Origin: Thalassotalea sp. 42_200_T64
GTDB taxonomy: Bacteria; Pseudomonadota; Gammaproteobacteria; Enterobacterales; Alteromonadaceae
Assembly (NCBI GenBank): GCA_002162925.1
Contig: MABC01000031.1
Span: 1-54,187 of the forward strand
DNA length: 54,187 bases
Direction: 5' to 3'
Numbering within the stretch: position 1 is the first letter of the stretch; every line of letters starts with the position of its first letter. A program made the position numbers and the translations under genes. Below are positions 6,187 to 53,795 of this stretch, piece by piece. The notes beneath the pieces are model-generated. The model ran no database searches. It had not been told where the DNA came from and worked only from the letters and a program-made list of their open reading frames with translations.

Positions 6187-6750
6187 ATGAAAAAAATAGC
6201 CATCGCATTAATCAGTTTAACTTTACTGCAAGGTTGCGCCGTCGCCTTGTTAGCGGGTGCCGGGGCCGGTGCCGCATCGTATAATGATCGCCGTACTTTA
6301 GGCTCACAAGTTGATGACCAGTCGATTGAAGTGAAAGCCTATAGTTTGATTGCCAATGATAAGGCCCTTGATGAACAAACCAGAATCCAGGTAGTTAGCC
6401 TAAATGGCACGGTTTTGGTGGTTGGCCAGGCACTAACAGCACAATTAAAAGATAAAGTGATTAAAACGATTTCAGGAATTCAGGGCATAACTAAACTGCA
6501 TGATCAGATTCGCATTGCCCGTTTGACCACTATCGGCACACGCACCAGTGACACCTGGCTTACCACGAAAGTAAAAACAGAATTATTAGCGTCTGATAAA
6601 ATTGACGGCACCGCCATTAAAGTGGTTACCGAAGATTCTGAAGTGTTTCTGATGGGCTTAGTGAAAGGCAATGAAGCAAATGTCGCCGTAAATATTGCTC
6701 GTAATATCACTGGCGTTGCCCGTGTCTATAAGGCGTTCCAGGTAATTTAG
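6187..6750 (+). CDS. dolP: Outer-membrane lipoprotein DolP with two BON domains
   Basis: DolP (YraP) is an outer-membrane lipoprotein that binds anionic phospholipid, gathers at division sites and supports BAM function and envelope integrity. The 187 residues start with a lipoprotein signal whose lipobox LQGC acylates Cys17. A glycine/alanine-rich linker and the family motif YNDRRTLGSQVDD follow, then two BON domains (about 45-115 and 120-187), each with the conserved central glycine region. It is the last gene of the cluster and ends in a clear terminator. Confidence 0.94.
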   Translation: MKKIAIALISLTLLQGCAVALLAGAGAGAASYNDRRTLGSQVDDQSIEVKAYSLIANDKALDEQTRIQVVSLNGTVLVVGQALTAQLKDKVIKTISGIQGITKLHDQIRIARLTTIGTRTSDTWLTTKVKTELLASDKIDGTAIKVVTEDSEVFLMGLVKGNEANVAVNIARNITGVARVYKAFQVI

Positions 6751-43736: not shown

Positions 43737-45078
<1,342 letters not shown>

Positions 45079-45540
45079 CTAGTACTGCAAACGCCTCGCG
45101 TCAACTTGCAGTGTTCGATTTGTTTCTACATTACCCGCAGCACAAACACCGGTTGCAGTTAAGGTAAAATATGTCAGCCCAGATTCGATAAAATCGGTGC
45201 ACTCTAAAGTCTCGATATGACAACCAATTAAGCCCGATACATTGGAAATGTCTGGTACTGTGGCCGCATTCACTACCGCACAATCCACAATTATGGAGTC
45301 TAATGGAAATAGCTGCTGCAGCCCCCATTGAGTACCGATATCTGCCGCCGCATAAGCGCGAGTACCAAAGACTTGATAAGCAACCGTTTCACTAGACGAT
45401 GTAATGATACGGACTAGCGCAGCGGCCATTAAACTGAATACCACAATCATAAAAATGGCCATGACCAAACTTGCCCCTTGCTGTTTTTTTCGAGCCAGGT
45501 TTAACTTCGGCGAAAAGTAGGCAGAACGGTTATGGCACAT
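45079..45540 (-). CDS. mshP: MSHA biogenesis protein MshP
   Basis: A minor component of the mannose-sensitive haemagglutinin type IV pilus system. The chosen ATG (45540) overlaps mshO by 11 bases and yields 153 residues; the true start is uncertain because the frame extends to 45582 and ribosome binding sites are weak. The hydrophobic stretch QGASLVMAIFMIVVFSLMAA resembles a PilX/MshP-type N-terminus without the glutamate at +5 of standard pilins. The rest is periplasmic with four scattered cysteines. Usually mshQ follows; here mreB does. Confidence 0.8.
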   Translation of the reverse strand: MCHNRSAYFSPKLNLARKKQQGASLVMAIFMIVVFSLMAAALVRIITSSSETVAYQVFGTRAYAAADIGTQWGLQQLFPLDSIIVDCAVVNAATVPDISNVSGLIGCHIETLECTDFIESGLTYFTLTATGVCAAGNVETNRTLQVDARRLQY

Positions 45541-46336
45541 TTCTAATATGCACTCCATTACTAAAAAACACACTGTCATCATTTTTCGAAAATTTAAAAT
45601 TAATCTGCACTATGGCAACACTTTGCAGTATTGAGTCGAAAACAAATGGAAAGCAACTACCGTGGCAAACATCGATATGTTCCGCCATTAATACGCCGCC
45701 AACGAGAATCGACTGGTTTATCGAGAAACCATAATTTTGATGTCGATGTAAACTGCCGCTTTGTGCGCAATAACTCACCGGCTCAGAGACGATGAATAGC
45801 CGTTCATTGGGGGATTCGGCAGCAAAGCTAAAGGCCGAATCTAACGTGATCCGCCATTTGTTACCTGCAGGCTTAGCGACACTGGTTAAGCCTATGGCTT
45901 TTTTGCTGCTCGCATGATCGTAGATGTCACTGCTATCAGTTGGGTAAACAATCACCAAATCCTTGCTGTTCGTTTGATAATCACTACTGGCTTTAACGAC
46001 ATCCAAAGTCGTTTTTTCCGCATCTGGCACCAGCGGAATATCAAGGTAAAAGCTGCTCGCCTGAATCGGGACAAACTCAAGGCACTGAGTACTACCATCA
46101 TCGATAATTCGAATGGAATTAGGCAAGGCATTTGTTAATTCTCGGTTTAACCGTTCTACGGTAAAGCGAGCATCCGAGATTAACGCATCACGGCCTGAGA
46201 CATTCTGATAAACGTTTGAACCTATTGTAATAAATCCGATAAAGCCTACTGAGATAATGCTTAAAATGGTGATCACCAGAACCAATTCAATTAAGGTGAA
46301 GCCTTGGATTGTCTTATATAGGTGGCCCTTTTTCAT
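45530..46336 (-). CDS. mshO: MSHA minor pseudopilin MshO
   Basis: A minor pilin-like protein of the MSHA pilus. It has a type IV prepilin signal (IQGFTLIELVLVITIL; cleavage before F, glutamate at +5) and 268 residues, with a PilW/MshO-like periplasmic part including SGRDALISDARFTVERLNREL. The order mshD-mshO-mshP supports the name. Its start overlaps the mshD stop by four bases. Confidence 0.88.
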   Translation of the reverse strand: MKKGHLYKTIQGFTLIELVLVITILSIISVGFIGFITIGSNVYQNVSGRDALISDARFTVERLNRELTNALPNSIRIIDDGSTQCLEFVPIQASSFYLDIPLVPDAEKTTLDVVKASSDYQTNSKDLVIVYPTDSSDIYDHASSKKAIGLTSVAKPAGNKWRITLDSAFSFAAESPNERLFIVSEPVSYCAQSGSLHRHQNYGFSINQSILVGGVLMAEHIDVCHGSCFPFVFDSILQSVAIVQINFKFSKNDDSVFFSNGVHIRNVP

Positions 46337-46914
46337 TCAAAGTTGGCCTTATAAGTCGCAAAAGTAATCGCGGTTCCAAGCGGCGTTGTCACCGTAATAG
46401 TGATAAGTTTCGCCAATAAAGCATTATCAATGGTGGCAGCATAATTATCGCTGTTGCCATCATAATTATTATCGTAAACCACGTTTACCCGGACACTAAA
46501 ACCGCGGTAGATGTCATTGATGTCACTACCTAAAGCATTTTCAAAAATATTCAAACCATGATAATCATCGACATCGTTGTATTGAGTTCTGGTTTCTGCC
46601 CCGTCTACCCCTAAGGTAAGACTGGGAGTGCAAGGTTTCCAACCGGTTTCATTGCAACGTAATACCCCGCCATTAAAATCTGATTGTTGATCAAACGCTT
46701 TTGAACTAATTTCATTGAGCAACGACTGACCTAACTCTGCCGCTCTGATCAAATGAATTTGATCAGCACTTTCTCTTTCCTTGGGCAGCATAGCCGCCAT
46801 CATGAAGGCAATCGCTACCACCATCATGGTCATGCCAATGACCAGTTCGATTAAGGTAAAACCGGCTTGCATATGGTGCCCTATAATTGCTCGGTTCAGG
46901 CGATTAACAGGCAT
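46333..46914 (-). CDS. mshD: MSHA minor pseudopilin MshD
   Basis: A minor pilin-like protein. The ATG at 46914 has GAGG upstream and gives 193 residues; the frame extends to 46962. The prepilin motif is QAGFTLIELVIGMTMMVVAI. The PilV-type continuation MLPKERESADQIHLIRAAELGQ has the typical run where QSLLNEI follows. It overlaps mshC by about 11 bases. Confidence 0.87.
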   Translation of the reverse strand: MPVNRLNRAIIGHHMQAGFTLIELVIGMTMMVVAIAFMMAAMLPKERESADQIHLIRAAELGQSLLNEISSKAFDQQSDFNGGVLRCNETGWKPCTPSLTLGVDGAETRTQYNDVDDYHGLNIFENALGSDINDIYRGFSVRVNVVYDNNYDGNSDNYAATIDNALLAKLITITVTTPLGTAITFATYKANFE

Positions 46915-47410
46915 GAATATAACCCTCACTTTCAATACAGAGCCGTGCCGTATCCGCAGCATTAGTAAATTCTATGATGCATTGAGAGGTACATTCCGAT
47001 ATTCTCCCCCAAGAATCTATGGTTAATGTTTCACTCGATTGAGAGCCGATTAATACCGTGGAACGGATAGGAATTTCAAAACCGGTATTGTCGGTATGCC
47101 AGTCTGCGGTTAATATTTTATTGCTACAATCTGTCGTACTGCCGTAGCCGGAACCATCGCTTTTGATCAATATTTGATGGCAAGATGCTGGATCAGTCTG
47201 CTGCATCGCCCTTTGCTGCTTTAAACGTAGATGGGAGATCATTTGATCGCGATATACGAACGCATCAAAACTGCTGACCCCGAACAGCTTAGGCACCACA
47301 GTGCTCGCCAAAATTGTGATAATAAGGATAACAACAATAAGTTCAACGATAGTAAAGCCTGAGACCTGCCGAGTTGCGCTTGCCATTATCTGTGGTTCAA
47401 ACCTTAACAA
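46904..47410 (-). CDS. mshC: MSHA minor pseudopilin MshC
   Basis: A minor pilin of the GspH/FimT kind, thought to prime the pilus. The motif is VSGFTIVELIVVILIITIL, with the glutamate at +5. Of 168 residues the C-terminal part holds three cysteine pairs. Two starts are possible (47410 or 47386); the first overlaps the mshA stop by seven bases. Placed right after mshA as in Vibrio and Pseudoalteromonas. Confidence 0.87.
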   Translation of the reverse strand: MLRFEPQIMASATRQVSGFTIVELIVVILIITILASTVVPKLFGVSSFDAFVYRDQMISHLRLKQQRAMQQTDPASCHQILIKSDGSGYGSTTDCSNKILTADWHTDNTGFEIPIRSTVLIGSQSSETLTIDSWGRISECTSQCIIEFTNAADTARLCIESEGYIHAC

Positions 47411-47892: not shown

Positions 47893-48510
47893 CTAAATGT
47901 CATTTACCGTTATCACTACTGAGCTGGTAGCTGGTTGATATAAAAAATTAATACCAATAGATTCATCACCATCAGGGCTTTTAAATTCATCGTCAGTTTT
48001 CGCTAAAGTTTGTTTTAAATGATAAACACAACTTCGCATTGGCGCGATGCCGGTTATAGACACGAAATATTTGTAGCTAGCCGAATCGATTCCATTGAGT
48101 TCGCCAATGTTTTGCGTCACTAACGGCGGTTGTTGTAAAATATTATTCCAAATATCAACACAATCGACAAGCTCCAAGGTATCATTGGTCCCTGCTAGTC
48201 CAATGGGATAGCCTGGACGTACACCATTACTTTGGCTTTTTGTGGTGAGAATAAGATTACTGCCATCGTAATTCACCACATTATAACTACCATCCGAAGG
48301 GCGTCCTTCAACTTCCCATTGAGCTCTGGCTAATGATATTGCGCTAGCAAAGCCGCCAGCCATACCTTCGATATTTGCCTGCTGAGCTTTGTCAGTCAAA
48401 TCGATAAATTTCGGAAGTGCCGTGACCGCAAATAAACCTATCAAGACAATAACAACCACTAATTCGATTAAAGTAAACCCTTTAACCTGATGTTTTTTAT
48501 TTTTATTCAT
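47893..48510 (-). CDS. mshB: MSHA pilin-like protein MshB
   Basis: A second pilin of the locus. The leader ends KG before FTLIELVVVIVLIGLFAV (E5 present). The 205-residue chain has the MshA/MshB-type LPKFIDLTDKAQQANIEGMAGGFASAI and a cysteine pair. Larger than MshA, it probably acts as a minor subunit. It lies 62 bases after mshG; the mshF gene that often separates the two is missing. Confidence 0.85.
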   Translation of the reverse strand: MNKNKKHQVKGFTLIELVVVIVLIGLFAVTALPKFIDLTDKAQQANIEGMAGGFASAISLARAQWEVEGRPSDGSYNVVNYDGSNLILTTKSQSNGVRPGYPIGLAGTNDTLELVDCVDIWNNILQQPPLVTQNIGELNGIDSASYKYFVSITGIAPMRSCVYHLKQTLAKTDDEFKSPDGDESIGINFLYQPATSSVVITVNDI

Positions 48511-48572
48511 AACTTCCTCAAACTTAATCTATTTTAACTCTAATATAGATTGCTTAAAAATCAATGTAAAAT

Positions 48573-49799
48573 TTAGCGTTGTACCGCCGAAAACATATCC
48601 CACATAGGGGTAAAAATACCTAATGCCAGTATCAGCACCATTGTCGCCATCACCAGAATTAAAATTGGCTCAACTCGGTCTGTTAAGGTTTTGAGATCGT
48701 ATTCAACTTCTCGCTCATAATAATGTGCCACGTTCTCAAGCAACTCATCAAGTTTACCGGTTTCTTCGCCCACCGCGATCATTTGCAATACTAATGGCGT
48801 AAATAGGCCGCTTGTTCTGGCTGTACGCAGGAGTGTTTCACCGGTTTCTACATTTTTGCGCATACCGACAATCTTGTCAGTCATATAAGAATTACCGGTA
48901 GACTCAGCGATTAAATTTAACCCTGTGGTAATAGGAACACCGGCTTTGAGCACAATGGCAAAGCTATGGGAAAAACGTGCAAGTAATGCCCGTTCTATTA
49001 TCTTGCCGATAATAGGTATTACAAGTTTACGTTTATCCCAATTGTATAAGCCTTTTTCGCTAGCGACATAGCTTTTAATGGCAAACCCGCTGACGGCAAA
49101 CATAATCAGGATCAATAACCAATAATCGGTAAAAAACGTTGAACTGGTAATTAACATTTTCGTTGCCAAAGGCAAGTCCGTGTTAAATTGGCTAAACATA
49201 TCGATAAACACCGGGATCACCCAAATATTTAGCACAAACATCGCAATAACAATGGCGAAAACGACAAACATTGGGTAACGAATGGCTTGTTTGATATTCT
49301 TTTTTGTCTCTTCTTCACGCTCGATATTCTCAGCCAGTTTGGCGAAGGATTGCCCCAACAGCCCGGTATTTTCGCCAACATGGACAACAGCGACAAACAA
49401 TTGATTAAAGATATTTGGGTGCTGCGCCATCGCCGATGACAGACTAAAGCCTTTCTCCAGTTTTGCATGAAGGTCATGCATCACCCTTTGTAAAGCCTTT
49501 GACGTTGTTGTATCTGCCAACCCCTTCATTGCACTTAATGTCGGCACCCCGGAACGCATTAATGCGTACATTTGCCGACAAAACATAATCAAATCAATCC
49601 CTTTTACCGTTTTTGATTCAAACCACACAGAAAGCTTAAGATCTTTCGATACTGACGCTGTGGCAGCATTTTTGATGGTGACAGGGATGATATTTTGCTT
49701 AGTTAATTGTTCTGCCACAGCGACACTTGTGCTCGCATCAAGTGAACCTGAAATTTGTTTGCCCTGACGGTTACGACCAATGTAATGAAAAAGTGCCAT
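48573..49799 (-). CDS. mshG: MSHA inner-membrane platform protein MshG
   Basis: MshG is the PilC/GspF-like platform on which pilins are polymerised. The 408 residues carry two T2SSF domains (about 70-195 and 275-400) with membrane helices near 170-195, 220-240 and 375-395. The FCRQMYALMRSGVPTLSAM and FSHSFAIVLKAGVPITTGL repeats mark the two domains. It is ten bases downstream of mshE. Confidence 0.95.
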   Translation of the reverse strand: MALFHYIGRNRQGKQISGSLDASTSVAVAEQLTKQNIIPVTIKNAATASVSKDLKLSVWFESKTVKGIDLIMFCRQMYALMRSGVPTLSAMKGLADTTTSKALQRVMHDLHAKLEKGFSLSSAMAQHPNIFNQLFVAVVHVGENTGLLGQSFAKLAENIEREEETKKNIKQAIRYPMFVVFAIVIAMFVLNIWVIPVFIDMFSQFNTDLPLATKMLITSSTFFTDYWLLILIMFAVSGFAIKSYVASEKGLYNWDKRKLVIPIIGKIIERALLARFSHSFAIVLKAGVPITTGLNLIAESTGNSYMTDKIVGMRKNVETGETLLRTARTSGLFTPLVLQMIAVGEETGKLDELLENVAHYYEREVEYDLKTLTDRVEPILILVMATMVLILALGIFTPMWDMFSAVQR

Positions 49800-49809
49800 A
49801 ATATTTCTG

Positions 49810-51522
49810 TTAACTAATATCTATCATTTCGGCTAACCGTAAAACTTCATCAATAGTGGTTACCCCCTGCTGTGCATAATCAAAAGCGGCTAATGCTAAT
49901 GGTCTATAGTTTTTGCTTAGTTTCGCGGCCCGGGTGAATGCTTCCGTGTCTTCTCGTTTTAAAGCATCCATCATTGTGGCGTCCAGTTCTAATAATTCAA
50001 ACACCCCAACTCGACCACGGTAACCAGAATAATTACAAGACTGGCAACCAATGCCTTTAAAAAATGTGCTGTTCACATCAGATTTGGTCAGGTTTTCTAA
50101 CCAAATTTTTTCTTGTGGCTGCAACGTATGGTCAATTATACAGCTATGACAAATTCGTCTTACCAGACGTTGTGCCACAATGGCCCTTAATGCACTGCTG
50201 ATTAAGAACCCCGGCGCGCCCATGTCGAGTAAGCGAATTGCTGAAGTAATGGCATCGTTGGTATGTAGCGTTGATAACACCATGTGACCGGTTAATGCGC
50301 CACGCATACCGATTTCAACCGTTTCTGTATCCCGCATTTCACCGATCATTAAAATATCGGGATCTTGACGTAATGATGTTCTTAACACTCGAGAAAAAGT
50401 TAAGCCGATTTTTTCATTCACCTGTACCTGATTTATTCTTGGCAGACGATATTCAACCGGATCTTCGACGGTAATAATTTTCTTTTCTGGCTGATTTAAT
50501 TCAGCAAGCGCGGCATACAAGGTTGTGGTTTTACCGCTACCGGTAGGACCAGTAACCAGAACCATGCCATTTGGACGGGTGATTTGTAGACGTAGACGCT
50601 CAACCAGGGCTAACGGCAAGCCCGTTTGTTCCAACGTGATTAAACCATCGGTTTGATCGAGTAAACGCATGACCACCGATTCGCCGTGTTGCACCGGCAT
50701 AGACGACATACGTACATCAATTTCATGGCCTTTTACCCGTAGGTGAAAACGGCCATCTTGTGGCAGGCGTTTTTCTGAGATGTCCAGGCTTGCCAGCAAT
50801 TTCAGTTTTAACACCAGCGCTTTAGCAATTTTTGCCTGTTTAATAATGCTCTCTTGTAATATACCATCAACACGTTGACGAATTCGTAACTGTTCTTTCT
50901 CCGGCTCAATATGTATATCTGAGGCACGCATTTGTACCGCATCTTCGAACACCGATTGTAATAATTTATCAACCGTAGCTTCACTTGAATCATCACCAAA
51001 ATCGGCGGTGCTAAAATCGATTTCTTTGACATCAACATATTCTTCTTCAAGTTGACTGGCAAAGGATTTTATCTCTGCGGTGCGGCGATATAAATTATCA
51101 AAAGCATAAAATAATTGCGATTCGGCTACCGCGGCAATGCAAATGTCTCTGGGAGTTAAATAGCTTTCAAGCTGATCAATAGCGTTCAAATCGGCTGGGT
51201 CACTCATGCCAACCAGTACCGTATCCTCATCATACTCCAGCACCAACGCCCTTAACCGGCGGGCATGAACTTCTGGCAGTAACTCAACAACATTGGCGCC
51301 AATGAACCTTTGGGTAATATCGATAAATGGTAAATTCAATTGTTTGGCAAGAAATTGCAACAACTGGCGCTCACTGATAAAACCTAATTCGATTAATGAA
51401 GTCCCTAACTTACGATGAGTGGTATTTTGCAATTGCAGCGCGTGTTCAAGCTGGTCGTCAGAGATAATATTCTCTTCGACCAATAAATCACCCAAACGTA
51501 GCTGTAATTTTGCTATCGCCAT
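49810..51522 (-). CDS. mshE: MSHA extension ATPase MshE (c-di-GMP-responsive)
   Basis: MshE drives pilus extension and in Vibrio is activated by cyclic di-GMP bound to its N-terminal MshEN domain. The 570 residues start with two MshEN motifs (LRLGDLLVEENIIS at 9-21 and RKLGTSLIELGFIS at 38-50). The first has asparagine where the consensus glycine is expected; the second keeps glycine. The GspE-type ATPase follows: Walker A GPTGSGKT (325-332), Asp box, Walker B DPDILMIGE (387-395), His box (STLHTND) and a four-cysteine zinc site (ICHSC, CQSC). GGGAGGA lies four bases before the ATG. Confidence 0.96.
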   Translation of the reverse strand: MAIAKLQLRLGDLLVEENIISDDQLEHALQLQNTTHRKLGTSLIELGFISERQLLQFLAKQLNLPFIDITQRFIGANVVELLPEVHARRLRALVLEYDEDTVLVGMSDPADLNAIDQLESYLTPRDICIAAVAESQLFYAFDNLYRRTAEIKSFASQLEEEYVDVKEIDFSTADFGDDSSEATVDKLLQSVFEDAVQMRASDIHIEPEKEQLRIRQRVDGILQESIIKQAKIAKALVLKLKLLASLDISEKRLPQDGRFHLRVKGHEIDVRMSSMPVQHGESVVMRLLDQTDGLITLEQTGLPLALVERLRLQITRPNGMVLVTGPTGSGKTTTLYAALAELNQPEKKIITVEDPVEYRLPRINQVQVNEKIGLTFSRVLRTSLRQDPDILMIGEMRDTETVEIGMRGALTGHMVLSTLHTNDAITSAIRLLDMGAPGFLISSALRAIVAQRLVRRICHSCIIDHTLQPQEKIWLENLTKSDVNSTFFKGIGCQSCNYSGYRGRVGVFELLELDATMMDALKREDTEAFTRAAKLSKNYRPLALAAFDYAQQGVTTIDEVLRLAEMIDIS

Positions 51523-51523
51523 T

Positions 51524-51607
51524 CTATCCTCCCAAGTCCACTAATTGCTGAGCAAAAGTAAGGCTATTGGCCAGAAAAAAGGCGCAAATCGATAAAAATT
51601 TATACAC
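51524..51607 (-). pseudogene. mshK: Truncated mshK: signal-peptide stub at a deletion junction
   Basis: A frame of 27 codons starts at GTG 51607, overlapping the mshJ stop, and ends at TAG 51524-51526, one base before mshE. It reads as a signal peptide (YKFLSICAFFLANSLTFA) followed by QQLVDLGG. MshK proteins are small and secreted and, as I recall them, begin their mature part with a leucine/valine-DPTRP-like stretch, so LVD fits the first residues of MshK, after which the rest is gone. The last bases (GGGAGGATAG) are the mshE ribosome binding site. This looks like one deletion from within mshK to just upstream of mshE, removing mshL, mshM and mshN. The MshK identity is inferred from position and the signal peptide. 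Confidence 0.6.
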
Positions 51608-52277
51608 CAATAAATTCCTTTTTAGTACTTAAACTGTACATTTCAATATTCAACTTGGCTTTTTGAGAATCACTCACCGAATAATCAAATTCGTGCCAAT
51701 AAAATGGCCAGGGCAATTGTTCAACTTTTTTCAAATAATCGCGCAATTGGAAATAATTTCCTTCCAGCGAAATCCGAAAATTATGGCGATAAAGATCAAT
51801 TTGCGGTGTTTGCGTATCCTGCAATACTTTTGCCGAACGCAAGTCATCCCGAATTAAAGGCTCTGGGGCCATTGACTTAAAGGCTAGCAGCGTTACCCCT
51901 GGAGAAAGCTGCAGCATATCTTGTAAAGCGCTGCGCATTTTATCCGGTAAAATAAGCTCATCGGTTAACGAGCCTAATTCATTGTCCATGCCTTTTAATT
52001 TATTCTCAAATTGGGCGATTTGTTCATCCAAATCTTTATTAGCATCTTTTGCCAAACGTACTTGCGCTTTTTCTGATGCTAACGTTGCGGTACTATTTTT
52101 ACTTTTGAGTTGAGTAATTGAGCGCTGAAGTTTGTTCGTTTTTAATGCGTAAGTTTCGAATGCGATGGCATTAAACAATAAATAAAAAATGAAAATACCC
52201 GCGAATAAGACCATATATTTCTCTCGGTTACTCAACTTTGAGAATTTTTCAGATAATACAAACCATTGTTTTTGCAT
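51600..52277 (-). CDS. mshJ: MSHA biogenesis protein MshJ
   Basis: MshJ is the PilO/GspM-like inner-membrane protein of the MSHA alignment complex. The 225 residues have one membrane helix (YMVLFAGIFIFYLLFNAIAF, about 20-39), a coiled coil (about 45-105) and a periplasmic ferredoxin-like part with FRISLEGNYFQLRDYLKKVEQLPWPFYW, in pieces typical of PilO/MshJ. It overlaps the upstream gene by one base. Confidence 0.9.
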   Translation of the reverse strand: MQKQWFVLSEKFSKLSNREKYMVLFAGIFIFYLLFNAIAFETYALKTNKLQRSITQLKSKNSTATLASEKAQVRLAKDANKDLDEQIAQFENKLKGMDNELGSLTDELILPDKMRSALQDMLQLSPGVTLLAFKSMAPEPLIRDDLRSAKVLQDTQTPQIDLYRHNFRISLEGNYFQLRDYLKKVEQLPWPFYWHEFDYSVSDSQKAKLNIEMYSLSTKKEFIGV

Positions 52278-52882
52278 TAGTTACTTTCCTCAGCTGGGCT
52301 TTGATTAGAGCTTACAACAAATTGTGTCTCACCTTTTTCATTGATTGATAAATTAAATTGGGCAAAGTTTCTACCCGACATAAAGGCTGCACCTTCAAAC
52401 CCAGACAACCAAATAGGCACTGAATCAGCTTTAGGCGCCAAACCAGAAATACTGACATTGTCATTGTCTATTTTGATATTTTGTAAACTAATTTCACCGT
52501 GATGATTTATCGCCAATTCCGACATTATTCCGGCAAAGCCGGTGACTCGTAGTTGGGTGTGATCGGTTAATTGTCGATGCAATATTTGTTTATTTTGAAG
52601 CATAGATTTTAATGTCGACAGTTGATTGATTTTCTTTGAACTTGTCGATCGGTTATCTAAGACTTGTCGATACTGCTTAAGCTTATTTTTTAACTGCACA
52701 TTTTTTCTTTTTAACGCGATATGTTCATCGTTAAATTGAGTATGAGTAATATTCGAGTAGGCGGTATAGAGAGCAAAAATAGAAAAAAACACTGCCCAAA
52801 CTCTTACCACATTGGTCAATGTTAGCCAGGATTGAACCGCAATTAATTCGTCTTTTAGCAGGTTAATGCGGGTTTTAGTCAT
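52277..52882 (-). CDS. mshI2: PilN-like MSHA biogenesis protein (MshI2)
   Basis: A 201-residue PilN-type protein: short cytoplasmic start TRINLLKDEL (PilN binds PilM through such a motif), one membrane helix (VVRVWAVFFSIFALYTAY, about 25-42), coiled coil (about 52-95) and a periplasmic ferredoxin-like domain. Its order after the PilM-like MshI and before the PilO-like MshJ is that of the pilMNO alignment complex. In Pseudoalteromonas and Shewanella the gene in this place is called mshI2. Confidence 0.82.
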   Translation of the reverse strand: MTKTRINLLKDELIAVQSWLTLTNVVRVWAVFFSIFALYTAYSNITHTQFNDEHIALKRKNVQLKNKLKQYRQVLDNRSTSSKKINQLSTLKSMLQNKQILHRQLTDHTQLRVTGFAGIMSELAINHHGEISLQNIKIDNDNVSISGLAPKADSVPIWLSGFEGAAFMSGRNFAQFNLSINEKGETQFVVSSNQSPAEESN

Positions 52883-53795
52883 TTACCATACCCACTTTTT
52901 CACATTCTTTTAACGCACCAATACTGGCGGCACAATTTCGCAATTTCCCAAATGGCTCTGGCAATTCAATTTTTGATATTTGTACCTGAGTATTTTTCGC
53001 TAAACTTTCTATAATAAAGTCTTCATGGGTTACCGGTAATAATACTTTTATCTGGGTTACTGGCGCTTGTTTGAGTAGACGTTCAAAATAGTCCATCGAT
53101 TTTTGTATTTCAACGTTTAATGAATCGCAAATGCCTTGGCTCAGTTGTTCCCTTGAATAGCCGCCGATATCATTAAAGCCGCGTAACCGCCGAGATAAAT
53201 ATATTTCCCCTTGATTTACAATCAGTAAAAATACATCTTCAAAGGGTTGCTGACATACCATCAAGGTTGAATTTTCCTGGTCATCGACTAAATTGGCAAA
53301 GGCAAATTCATCGGTGATGATGCCTTTCAGTTCGACCTGATAGCGTTTAAAGGTATCGGTAAATTTTTTAAGGTGAGAAAGATGACTACAAACTACATTT
53401 ATTTTTTCAGCGCCTGCAACAATCACTGGTGAATCAAAATAATCGACAATCATATCGTCCGGATCAATCGGTACGATATCTTTTACCAGCCATTTTATTG
53501 CTAAGGGAATTTCATCATCGGGTAAATCGGGCTTGTTAATTTGGACACTGTGGTAATGACTAGCCGATAACACCAGATAGCCCGAACCGAGAAAGGTGTG
53601 AGTCGCTAACAGTTTGTGTAACCACTCACCGGCAGATTCTGTAGTTTCGGTGATAAACTCATCCGCTTTTCGATCTTCATCAATCCCTTTTTCGCAGGCG
53701 TAAGCTCCTACCTGGTTGCGCAAGGCAATGGCAAATCTAGCATTTGTGTTTTTTTTGGAGAAAAGTGATTTTAATCCATTTAACATCGACTTCAA
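52875..53795 (-). CDS. mshI: MSHA biogenesis protein MshI (PilM-like)
   Basis: MshI corresponds to PilM, an actin-like cytoplasmic protein that links the motor to the inner-membrane PilN/PilO pair. The 306 residues show a degenerate actin-like fold: IPLAIKWLVKDIVPIDPDDM, KGIITDEFAFANLV and LIVNQGEIYLSRRLRGFNDI. It is the first MSHA gene in the window; mshH, when present in relatives, would lie further right, but the adjacent 390 bases hold only repeats. Confidence 0.87.
   Translation of the reverse strand: MKSMLNGLKSLFSKKNTNARFAIALRNQVGAYACEKGIDEDRKADEFITETTESAGEWLHKLLATHTFLGSGYLVLSASHYHSVQINKPDLPDDEIPLAIKWLVKDIVPIDPDDMIVDYFDSPVIVAGAEKINVVCSHLSHLKKFTDTFKRYQVELKGIITDEFAFANLVDDQENSTLMVCQQPFEDVFLLIVNQGEIYLSRRLRGFNDIGGYSREQLSQGICDSLNVEIQKSMDYFERLLKQAPVTQIKVLLPVTHEDFIIESLAKNTQVQISKIELPEPFGKLRNCAASIGALKECEKVGMVND

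Follow-up and report, generated by a model that had tools for sequence, protein, structure and literature searches.

The MSHA type IV pilus locus of Thalassotalea sp. 42_200_T64 raises the question of what becomes of a pilus machine whose own locus carries no secretin. The locus lies in a stretch of 54,187 nucleotides (the window; contig MABC01000031.1, assembly GCA_002162925.1). An earlier note on this DNA described a deletion scar between mshJ and mshE and considered a secretin encoded elsewhere, a recently dead locus or a collapsed assembly. Comparison with relatives shows that the loss of the secretin module is real, that it is old, and that the reduced locus has been maintained by selection. 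The filament must then use a different pore or do its work within the envelope.

The genome of the window (G000) is an 87% complete draft in 94 contigs. The relatives named most often below are the isolate Thalassotalea sp. ND16A (G007, 100% complete), an uncultured Thalassotalea MAG (G003, 78% complete), Thalassomonas sp. M1454 (G013) and an uncultured Thalassotalea (G012); further genomes are given by handle.

Genes retained and lost at the MSHA locus

On the minus strand the window shows the order mshI, mshI2, mshJ, a 77-bp gap, mshE, mshG, mshB, mshA, mshC, mshD, mshO and mshP, followed by mreB, mreC and mreD. Genes are named after their order in the locus and their counterparts in relatives (synteny, blastp, Pfam).

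52875..53795, minus strand: mshI, 306 aa, intact; by locus order, no Pfam or NCBIfam match
52277..52882, minus strand: mshI2 (PilN-like), intact; Pfam PilN E = 0.0006, below cut-off
51600..52277, minus strand: mshJ (PilO-like by position), intact; by locus order, no informative Pfam match
49810..51522, minus strand: mshE, extension ATPase with c-di-GMP-binding N-terminus; PF00437 E = 7e-124, PF05157 MshEN E = 1e-13
48573..49799, minus strand: mshG, inner-membrane platform protein; PF00482 in two stretches, E = 8e-57
47893..48510, minus strand: mshB pilin, intact; N_methyl PF07963
47404..47877, minus strand: mshA major pilin, intact; N_methyl PF07963
46904..47410, minus strand: mshC minor pilin, intact; N_methyl
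46333..46962, minus strand: mshD minor pilin, intact; N_methyl
45530..46336, minus strand: mshO minor pilin, intact; N_methyl
45079..45582, minus strand: mshP, intact; synteny and blastp to relatives, no Pfam match

Pfam thus supports the names of MshE, MshG and the five pilins; its support for MshI2 is weak, and for MshI, MshJ and MshP it has no informative match. All 11 genes are open and the domains of MshE, MshG and the pilins are kept, in agreement with the earlier note, which had called the pilins, platform and extension ATPase intact. The MshE sequence is 70–95% identical to other MshE of the genus, the next family members reaching only about 40%, and it keeps the c-di-GMP motif (NF053729, E = 5e-21).

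As in the MSHA loci of Vibrio, Shewanella and Alteromonadales, the window keeps the order I-I2-J-[K-L-M-N]-E-G-[F]-B-A-C-D-O-P-[Q] of intact relatives, the MshE c-di-GMP motif and the pilin N-terminal motif. It differs in having no K, L, M, N or F and in having lost nearly all of Q. No prepilin peptidase is seen among the open reading frames of the locus; a PilD-like open reading frame, named by position, adjoins pilB elsewhere in the genome. The MSH model described by Denise et al. (2019; PMC6668835) requires MshL and MshM. Held against that model, the locus has mshA, mshE and mshG, all present, and no peptidase, but neither mshL nor mshM.

Two smaller losses lie further along the locus.

48511..48572, minus strand: site of the missing mshF; G-F-B junctions compared by eye
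45043..45063, minus strand: mshQ remnant, last codons KKEIDK and stop; 19/21 nt identical to the G013 mshQ 3′ end

In intact relatives mshF encodes about 160–172 aa. A stretch upstream of mshB that is common to the relatives (TTGATTT..CTATATTAGAGTTA) is kept in the window, and mshF is absent between it and the mshG stop codon. The mshQ gene is absent in the window genome, ND16A and G003, apart from the last codons in the window genome; ND16A keeps 14/15 nt of the mshQ end and, before it, a longer open stretch in a different frame, which could represent the start of mshQ. The mshQ remnants are unlike in the two genomes and show what unselected DNA looks like at this locus. A filament that has ceased to reach the cell surface would be consistent with the loss of mshQ as well.

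The junction between mshJ and mshE

Between the end of mshJ at 51600 and the start of mshE at 51522 lies a gap of 77 bp, whose only content is one small open reading frame.

51524..51607, minus strand: 27-codon scar open reading frame with a putative in-frame mshK'-'mshN junction; from sequence and translation, similar stub in ND16A
51545..51607, minus strand: predicted mshK-derived 5′ part, signal-peptide-like stretch to AQQ; from position of start
51524..51544, minus strand: predicted mshN-derived 3′ part, LVDLGG and stop; from local alignment to mshN 3′ ends

The scar reads from GTG to TAG (84 nt) and translates as VYKFLSICAFFLANSLTFAQQLVDLGG*. Its GTG overlaps the mshJ stop codon, and its own stop ends one base before the mshE ATG. 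The 27-codon GTG-started stub of the earlier note is therefore present as described, at a place where intact relatives carry 4,012–4,104 bp.

The two ends of the scar point to different genes. A GTG that could serve as mshK start lies at an equal offset (−8), inside the mshJ stop region, in 9/9 relatives with mshK; the second residue is F or Y in all nine and the third is K in 7/9, giving a V[FY]K start. Assignment of the 5′ part to mshK follows from this start position and the V[FY]K residues, the signal peptide being judged by inspection. Beyond the start, the similarity of the 5′ part to mshK DNA is not significant (p = 0.38 for the window, 0.20 for ND16A). The 3′ part, with a boundary set by inspection to within a few bases, aligns locally to the mshN 3′ ends of the nine relatives (p = 0.002 for the window and 0.03 for ND16A, from shuffles), the two alignments not being independent of each other. 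Crossed controls give p = 0.06–0.31, none below 0.05. These p-values come from 12 comparisons and are uncorrected; a factor of 12 is survived by the window's tail against mshN only. In its last seven codons the scar is closer to mshN than to MshK, and it thus appears to be an in-frame mshK'-'mshN fusion in which the start of mshK is joined to the end of mshN. The earlier view of the stub as mshK cut down to its signal peptide stands for the start, which has the same position as in the relatives, but not for the tail, which aligns to the mshN 3′ end.

That the stub merges with the mshE ribosome-binding site is also seen: GGAGG sits inside the mshN-derived 3′ part. In intact genomes the purine-rich stretch fitting this site is located within the last mshN codons, and for this reason the deletion has kept the ribosome-binding site of mshE. 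The periplasmic T2SSB-like domain of MshK is not present in the 27 codons of the scar; the full MshK of an intact relative (G006) weakly matches T2SSB (Pfam; E = 3e-4, below cut-off, residues 49–93).

A collapsed assembly, in which mshK-L-M-N would have been dropped from a draft contig, might be suspected from the incompleteness and fragmentation of the window genome. ND16A, an independently assembled isolate, also shows a 77-bp gap, with an 84-nt stub that differs from the window's at 14/84 positions, and MshL is found in neither genome. A diverged scar with an equal gap is explained neither by chance nor by a shared artefact, and the assembly explanation is barely conceivable. In the G003 MAG the mshJ-to-mshE distance is 81 bp and the junction differs from that of the other two genomes. 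An open frame runs from the mshK start as far as a stop codon that overlaps the mshE start, and local alignment gives no significant match to the ends of mshK or mshN; the join may or may not lie at the same places as in the other two genomes.

Search for the missing genes elsewhere in the genome

A profile search of the whole window genome gives no MshL above the family cut-off TIGR02519. Two secretins each are found in the window genome, ND16A and G003. Those of the window genome are PilQ (TIGR02515, 528 bits) and GspD (TIGR02517, 549 bits), both below the TIGR02519 cut-off; the MshL of G006, when scored by NCBIfam, gives 164 bits for GspD and 127 bits for PilQ. For MshM, which carries an AAA domain (Pfam), the window genome yields only two paralogues of 41% and 38% identity in longer frames, compared with 76–97% identity to the G006 query for the orthologues in five other intact relatives. 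For MshN there is only one weak match (E = 5e-4, 24% identity, within a 917-aa frame), and in ND16A likewise only a weak match (E = 6e-6) within a much longer frame. Relocation of MshL, MshM or MshN was considered and rejected, none being found elsewhere in the window genome, ND16A or G003 at their respective completeness of 87%, 100% and 78%. The earlier note had mshL, mshM and mshN missing. They are absent from the locus, and the genome-wide search bears out the absence for MshL, but it returns distant matches for the other two, and mshF and most of mshQ are gone as well.

The window genome and ND16A each have five PF00437 ATPases over cut-off, which are GspE, PilB, MshE, PilT and PilU by position, length and score. 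The PilM, N, O, P and Q genes are clustered, and PilB/C/D-like, PilT/U-like and GspD genes are present and conserved. This T4aP system has a platform homologous to that of MSHA; it differs in having its own secretin and PilP coupler, at separate loci.

Some intact relatives carry additional secretin frames in the neighborhood. G006 has a lone secretin of about 640 aa (L214:5035-6951) some 6 kb from its MSHA locus, and in G004 and G013 secretin matches in frames of similar size lie 4–7 kb from the MSHA loci by coordinates.

Distribution of the loss

MshJ is found in 10/15 genomes of the genus, and a true MshE in the same 10; the remaining five have neither, and loss of the whole MSHA is thus common in the genus. 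MshL exceeds the family cut-off in 7/10 MshE-bearing genomes, those without it being the window genome, ND16A and G003. The 4-kb mshJ-to-mshE interval with K, L, M and N is found in eight relatives, six of the genus (G004, G006, G011, G009, G013, G012, G015 and G021 make up the eight) and two from other genera of the family. In a ninth, G001, the interval is 2,726 bp, with mshL present and mshM absent. The MSHA locus of G001 (L078, Thalassotalea group) is also without mshF, mshB and mshQ. In G008 an mshB-like open reading frame (L190:2167-2772) lies between rplI and mreB, with other MSHA genes absent; it is 55% identical to the window's MshB, Lys replaces the usual Glu5 (GFTLIK), and it may be a picture of a decayed MSHA.

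Across the family MshE is present in 317/395 genomes at E ≤ 1e-150, a cut-off set to exclude PilB and GspE, and MshL in 316/395 at E ≤ 1e-60, of which 315 exceed the family cut-off. From lists compared by eye, 312 of the 317 MshE-bearing genomes also have MshL, and four genomes have MshL without MshE. The five with MshE and no MshL are the window genome, ND16A, G003, G143 and G364. G143 and G364 were rejected as further secretin-less cases, as MshE lies near a contig end and an open reading frame occupies the mshN position before it. A compact mshJ-mshE junction is, as far as seen, present in 3/317 MshE-bearing genomes.

A tree of MreB, MreC, MreD, Maf, Rng and YhdP places the window genome and ND16A in one clade and G003 with G013 and G008 (support 100). 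The MSHA proteins likewise unite G003 and G013 (support 97), and the MSHA locus of G013 is intact. A single deletion common to all three secretin-less genomes was rejected on account of this grouping of G003 with an intact relative. The simplest reading would be two independent losses of one module in the genus. The scar is common to the window genome and ND16A, and the loss is therefore older than their split.

Selection on the retained genes

The age of the scar bears on the suggestion that the locus is recently dead, or dying, with intact frames merely reflecting a short time. Between the window genome and ND16A, with alignment coverage of at least 0.99, the 11 retained genes show dS = 0.23–0.39 and dN/dS = 0.086–0.287. 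Pooled, there are 341 changes at 6,731 nonsynonymous sites and 455 at 1,915 synonymous sites (dN = 0.052, dS = 0.286, dN/dS = 0.18). All 11 genes have dN < dS (Fisher p = 8e-6 to 1e-36). No internal stop is found in either genome, against 78–133 nonsense changes expected under neutrality over 2,884 codons. The 11 genes have been under purifying selection since the two genomes split. The retained msh genes of G003 are open as well.

Other systems provide a scale for the same pair of genomes. The dN/dS is 0.05–0.18 for PilM-Q, 0.05–0.06 for PilB/C/D-like, 0.04 for PilT-like, 0.10 for PilU-like and 0.01–0.20 for GspC-K; two pilins by pilB give 0.40 and 0.27. Constraint on the MSHA machine genes is thus a little weaker than on T4aP/T2SS machine genes. 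The msh dN/dS is higher in this pair than in G004-G006, two pairs that differ in divergence; the controls are mostly 1–3 times higher too, and mreD about 10 times.

Branch ratios were taken for each lineage against an intact relative. For the window genome against G004, mshI, I2, J, E and G give 0.89–2.03, and core and pil genes 1.17–3.83 (without mreB, for which the G004 branch is zero), on a branch that includes time before the deletion. For G003 against G013 the ratios are high in mshI2 (5.5), mshJ (8.5), mshA (5.2), mshO (9.5) and mshP (4.1) and lower in mshB (1.3), mshC (2.3) and mshI (2.7), with 0.99–3.5 for core and pil genes. For G001 against G012, mshI, I2, J, E and G give 2.2–3.3 and controls 0.2–2.9. 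Pilin branch ratios, taken as a test of surface exposure, go in both directions (mshA 3.0, mshB 3.5, mshO 0.9, mshP 0.5). For mshA, mshO and mshP, dN is lower between the window genome and ND16A than among intact species, a comparison of few pairs in which intact-pair dS is saturated and recombination is possible. Relaxed selection on the msh genes is mild at most.

A dying locus would be in keeping with the frequent loss of whole MSHA loci in the genus, with the several fast-evolving genes of G003, and with an msh dN/dS (0.09–0.29) some 2–3 times that of most T4aP/T2SS machine genes. It is contradicted for the window genome and ND16A, up to their split and since, by the missing nonsense changes and by dN < dS in every gene, and mshI, I2, J, E and G carry no extra branch length in the window lineage. 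The mshQ remnants show, at the same locus, how DNA decays when it is not selected. A dead or dying locus is accordingly quite improbable, and the proposal of a recent death does not hold for this lineage.

Possible routes of the filament

The K-L-M-N block looks like a secretin with its helpers, lost as one module. This view comes from the mshL mutant phenotype, the homology of MshN to TadD, which is needed for assembly of the Tad secretin (PMC6668835), the likeness of MshK to T2SSB and the AAA domain of MshM. V. cholerae loses its surface MshA pili when mshL is deleted but keeps them when mshM or mshN is deleted (PMC4624765), and in Shewanella oneidensis deletion of mshL lowers biofilm (PMC7909257).

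An ancestor of the lineage lost mshK, L, M and N by an in-frame deletion, with mshF and mshQ also lost in the lineage. The genes for the inner-membrane apparatus and the filament (mshI, I2, J, E, G, B, A, C, D, O and P) stayed in place and are under selection to this day. In the proposed explanation, the platform of MshE and MshG under c-di-GMP control would still build an MshA filament. This filament would exit by a resident secretin, in the first place PilQ with its coupler PilP, GspD being the alternative, and the T4aP system would also supply PilT/PilU and the prepilin peptidase. MshK is the presumed coupler to the secretin; with MshK gone, PilP would have to take this role. Continued assembly of a filament and its passage through PilQ are both inferred. 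The explanation as a whole, with exit most likely by a resident secretin and foremost PilQ, is tentative and falls a little short of an even chance.

Sharing between systems has a precedent in PilT, and V. cholerae also has a competence T4aP (PMC9815625). Several observations argue against exit by PilQ: V. cholerae mshL mutants lose their pili, PilP and PilQ show no acceleration, and the MshL of G006 scores closer to GspD than to PilQ. With 14 taxa, the share relative to core on the secretin-less branches is 0.86 (stem of the window genome and ND16A) and 0.67 (G003) for PilP, and 0.64 and 0.59 for PilQ. Co-adaptation of PilP, which had the top control ratio in both secretin-less lineages (3.8 and 3.5) in a smaller analysis, was rejected when these values disappeared with 14 taxa; they were due to small comparison branches. 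Both V. cholerae and S. oneidensis carry PilQ. The mshL-deletion phenotypes in these two species indicate that PilQ does not rescue MshL there.

A second explanation is a filament that stays within the envelope and has taken on a new function there, e.g. as a periplasmic pseudopilus gated by c-di-GMP. The loss of the outer-membrane module along with mshQ, and the constraint on the filament and motor genes, speak for such a machine. Filaments are described to form without a working exit in Thermus lacking PilW and, as cited there, in Neisseria meningitidis lacking PilQ and the retraction ATPase (PMC13039148). These periplasm-trapped pili resemble the present case in having a platform without a working outer-membrane exit, but they are a defect of laboratory mutants and not a function, whereas the Thalassotalea loss is natural and maintained. 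MshK, possibly part of the inner-membrane subcomplex, is also missing here. An envelope-confined filament is rather unlikely, and slightly more doubtful still is the fuller proposal that a whole outer-membrane export module was shed naturally to give a c-di-GMP-controlled pseudopilus, which may have arisen twice in the genus.

A third explanation is a mixed machine: the T4aP or T2SS of the cell would use MSHA pilins as an alternative set, or MshE and MshG as a motor under c-di-GMP control. Both gene sets are present and the c-di-GMP motif of MshE is kept. The retention of 11/11 genes as one locus, with the mshI-I2-J set included, argues for a self-contained platform and makes a mixed machine improbable.

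Loss of the MSHA secretin can be favored in some conditions, as in S. oneidensis evolved through zebrafish; that case is a laboratory missense mutation in mshL, and Thalassotalea shows a fixed loss of the whole module (PMC7909257). No report of an MSHA locus without mshL is found by title in the open-licence literature, where a prior mention may exist.

Gene-presence models in which mshL and mshM are mandatory can misjudge loci of this kind. The Thalassotalea locus is a natural experiment on whether a type IV pilus can borrow the pore of another system and whether a pilus machine without a pore can be useful. One carrier of the scar, ND16A, is an isolate, and both questions are therefore testable.
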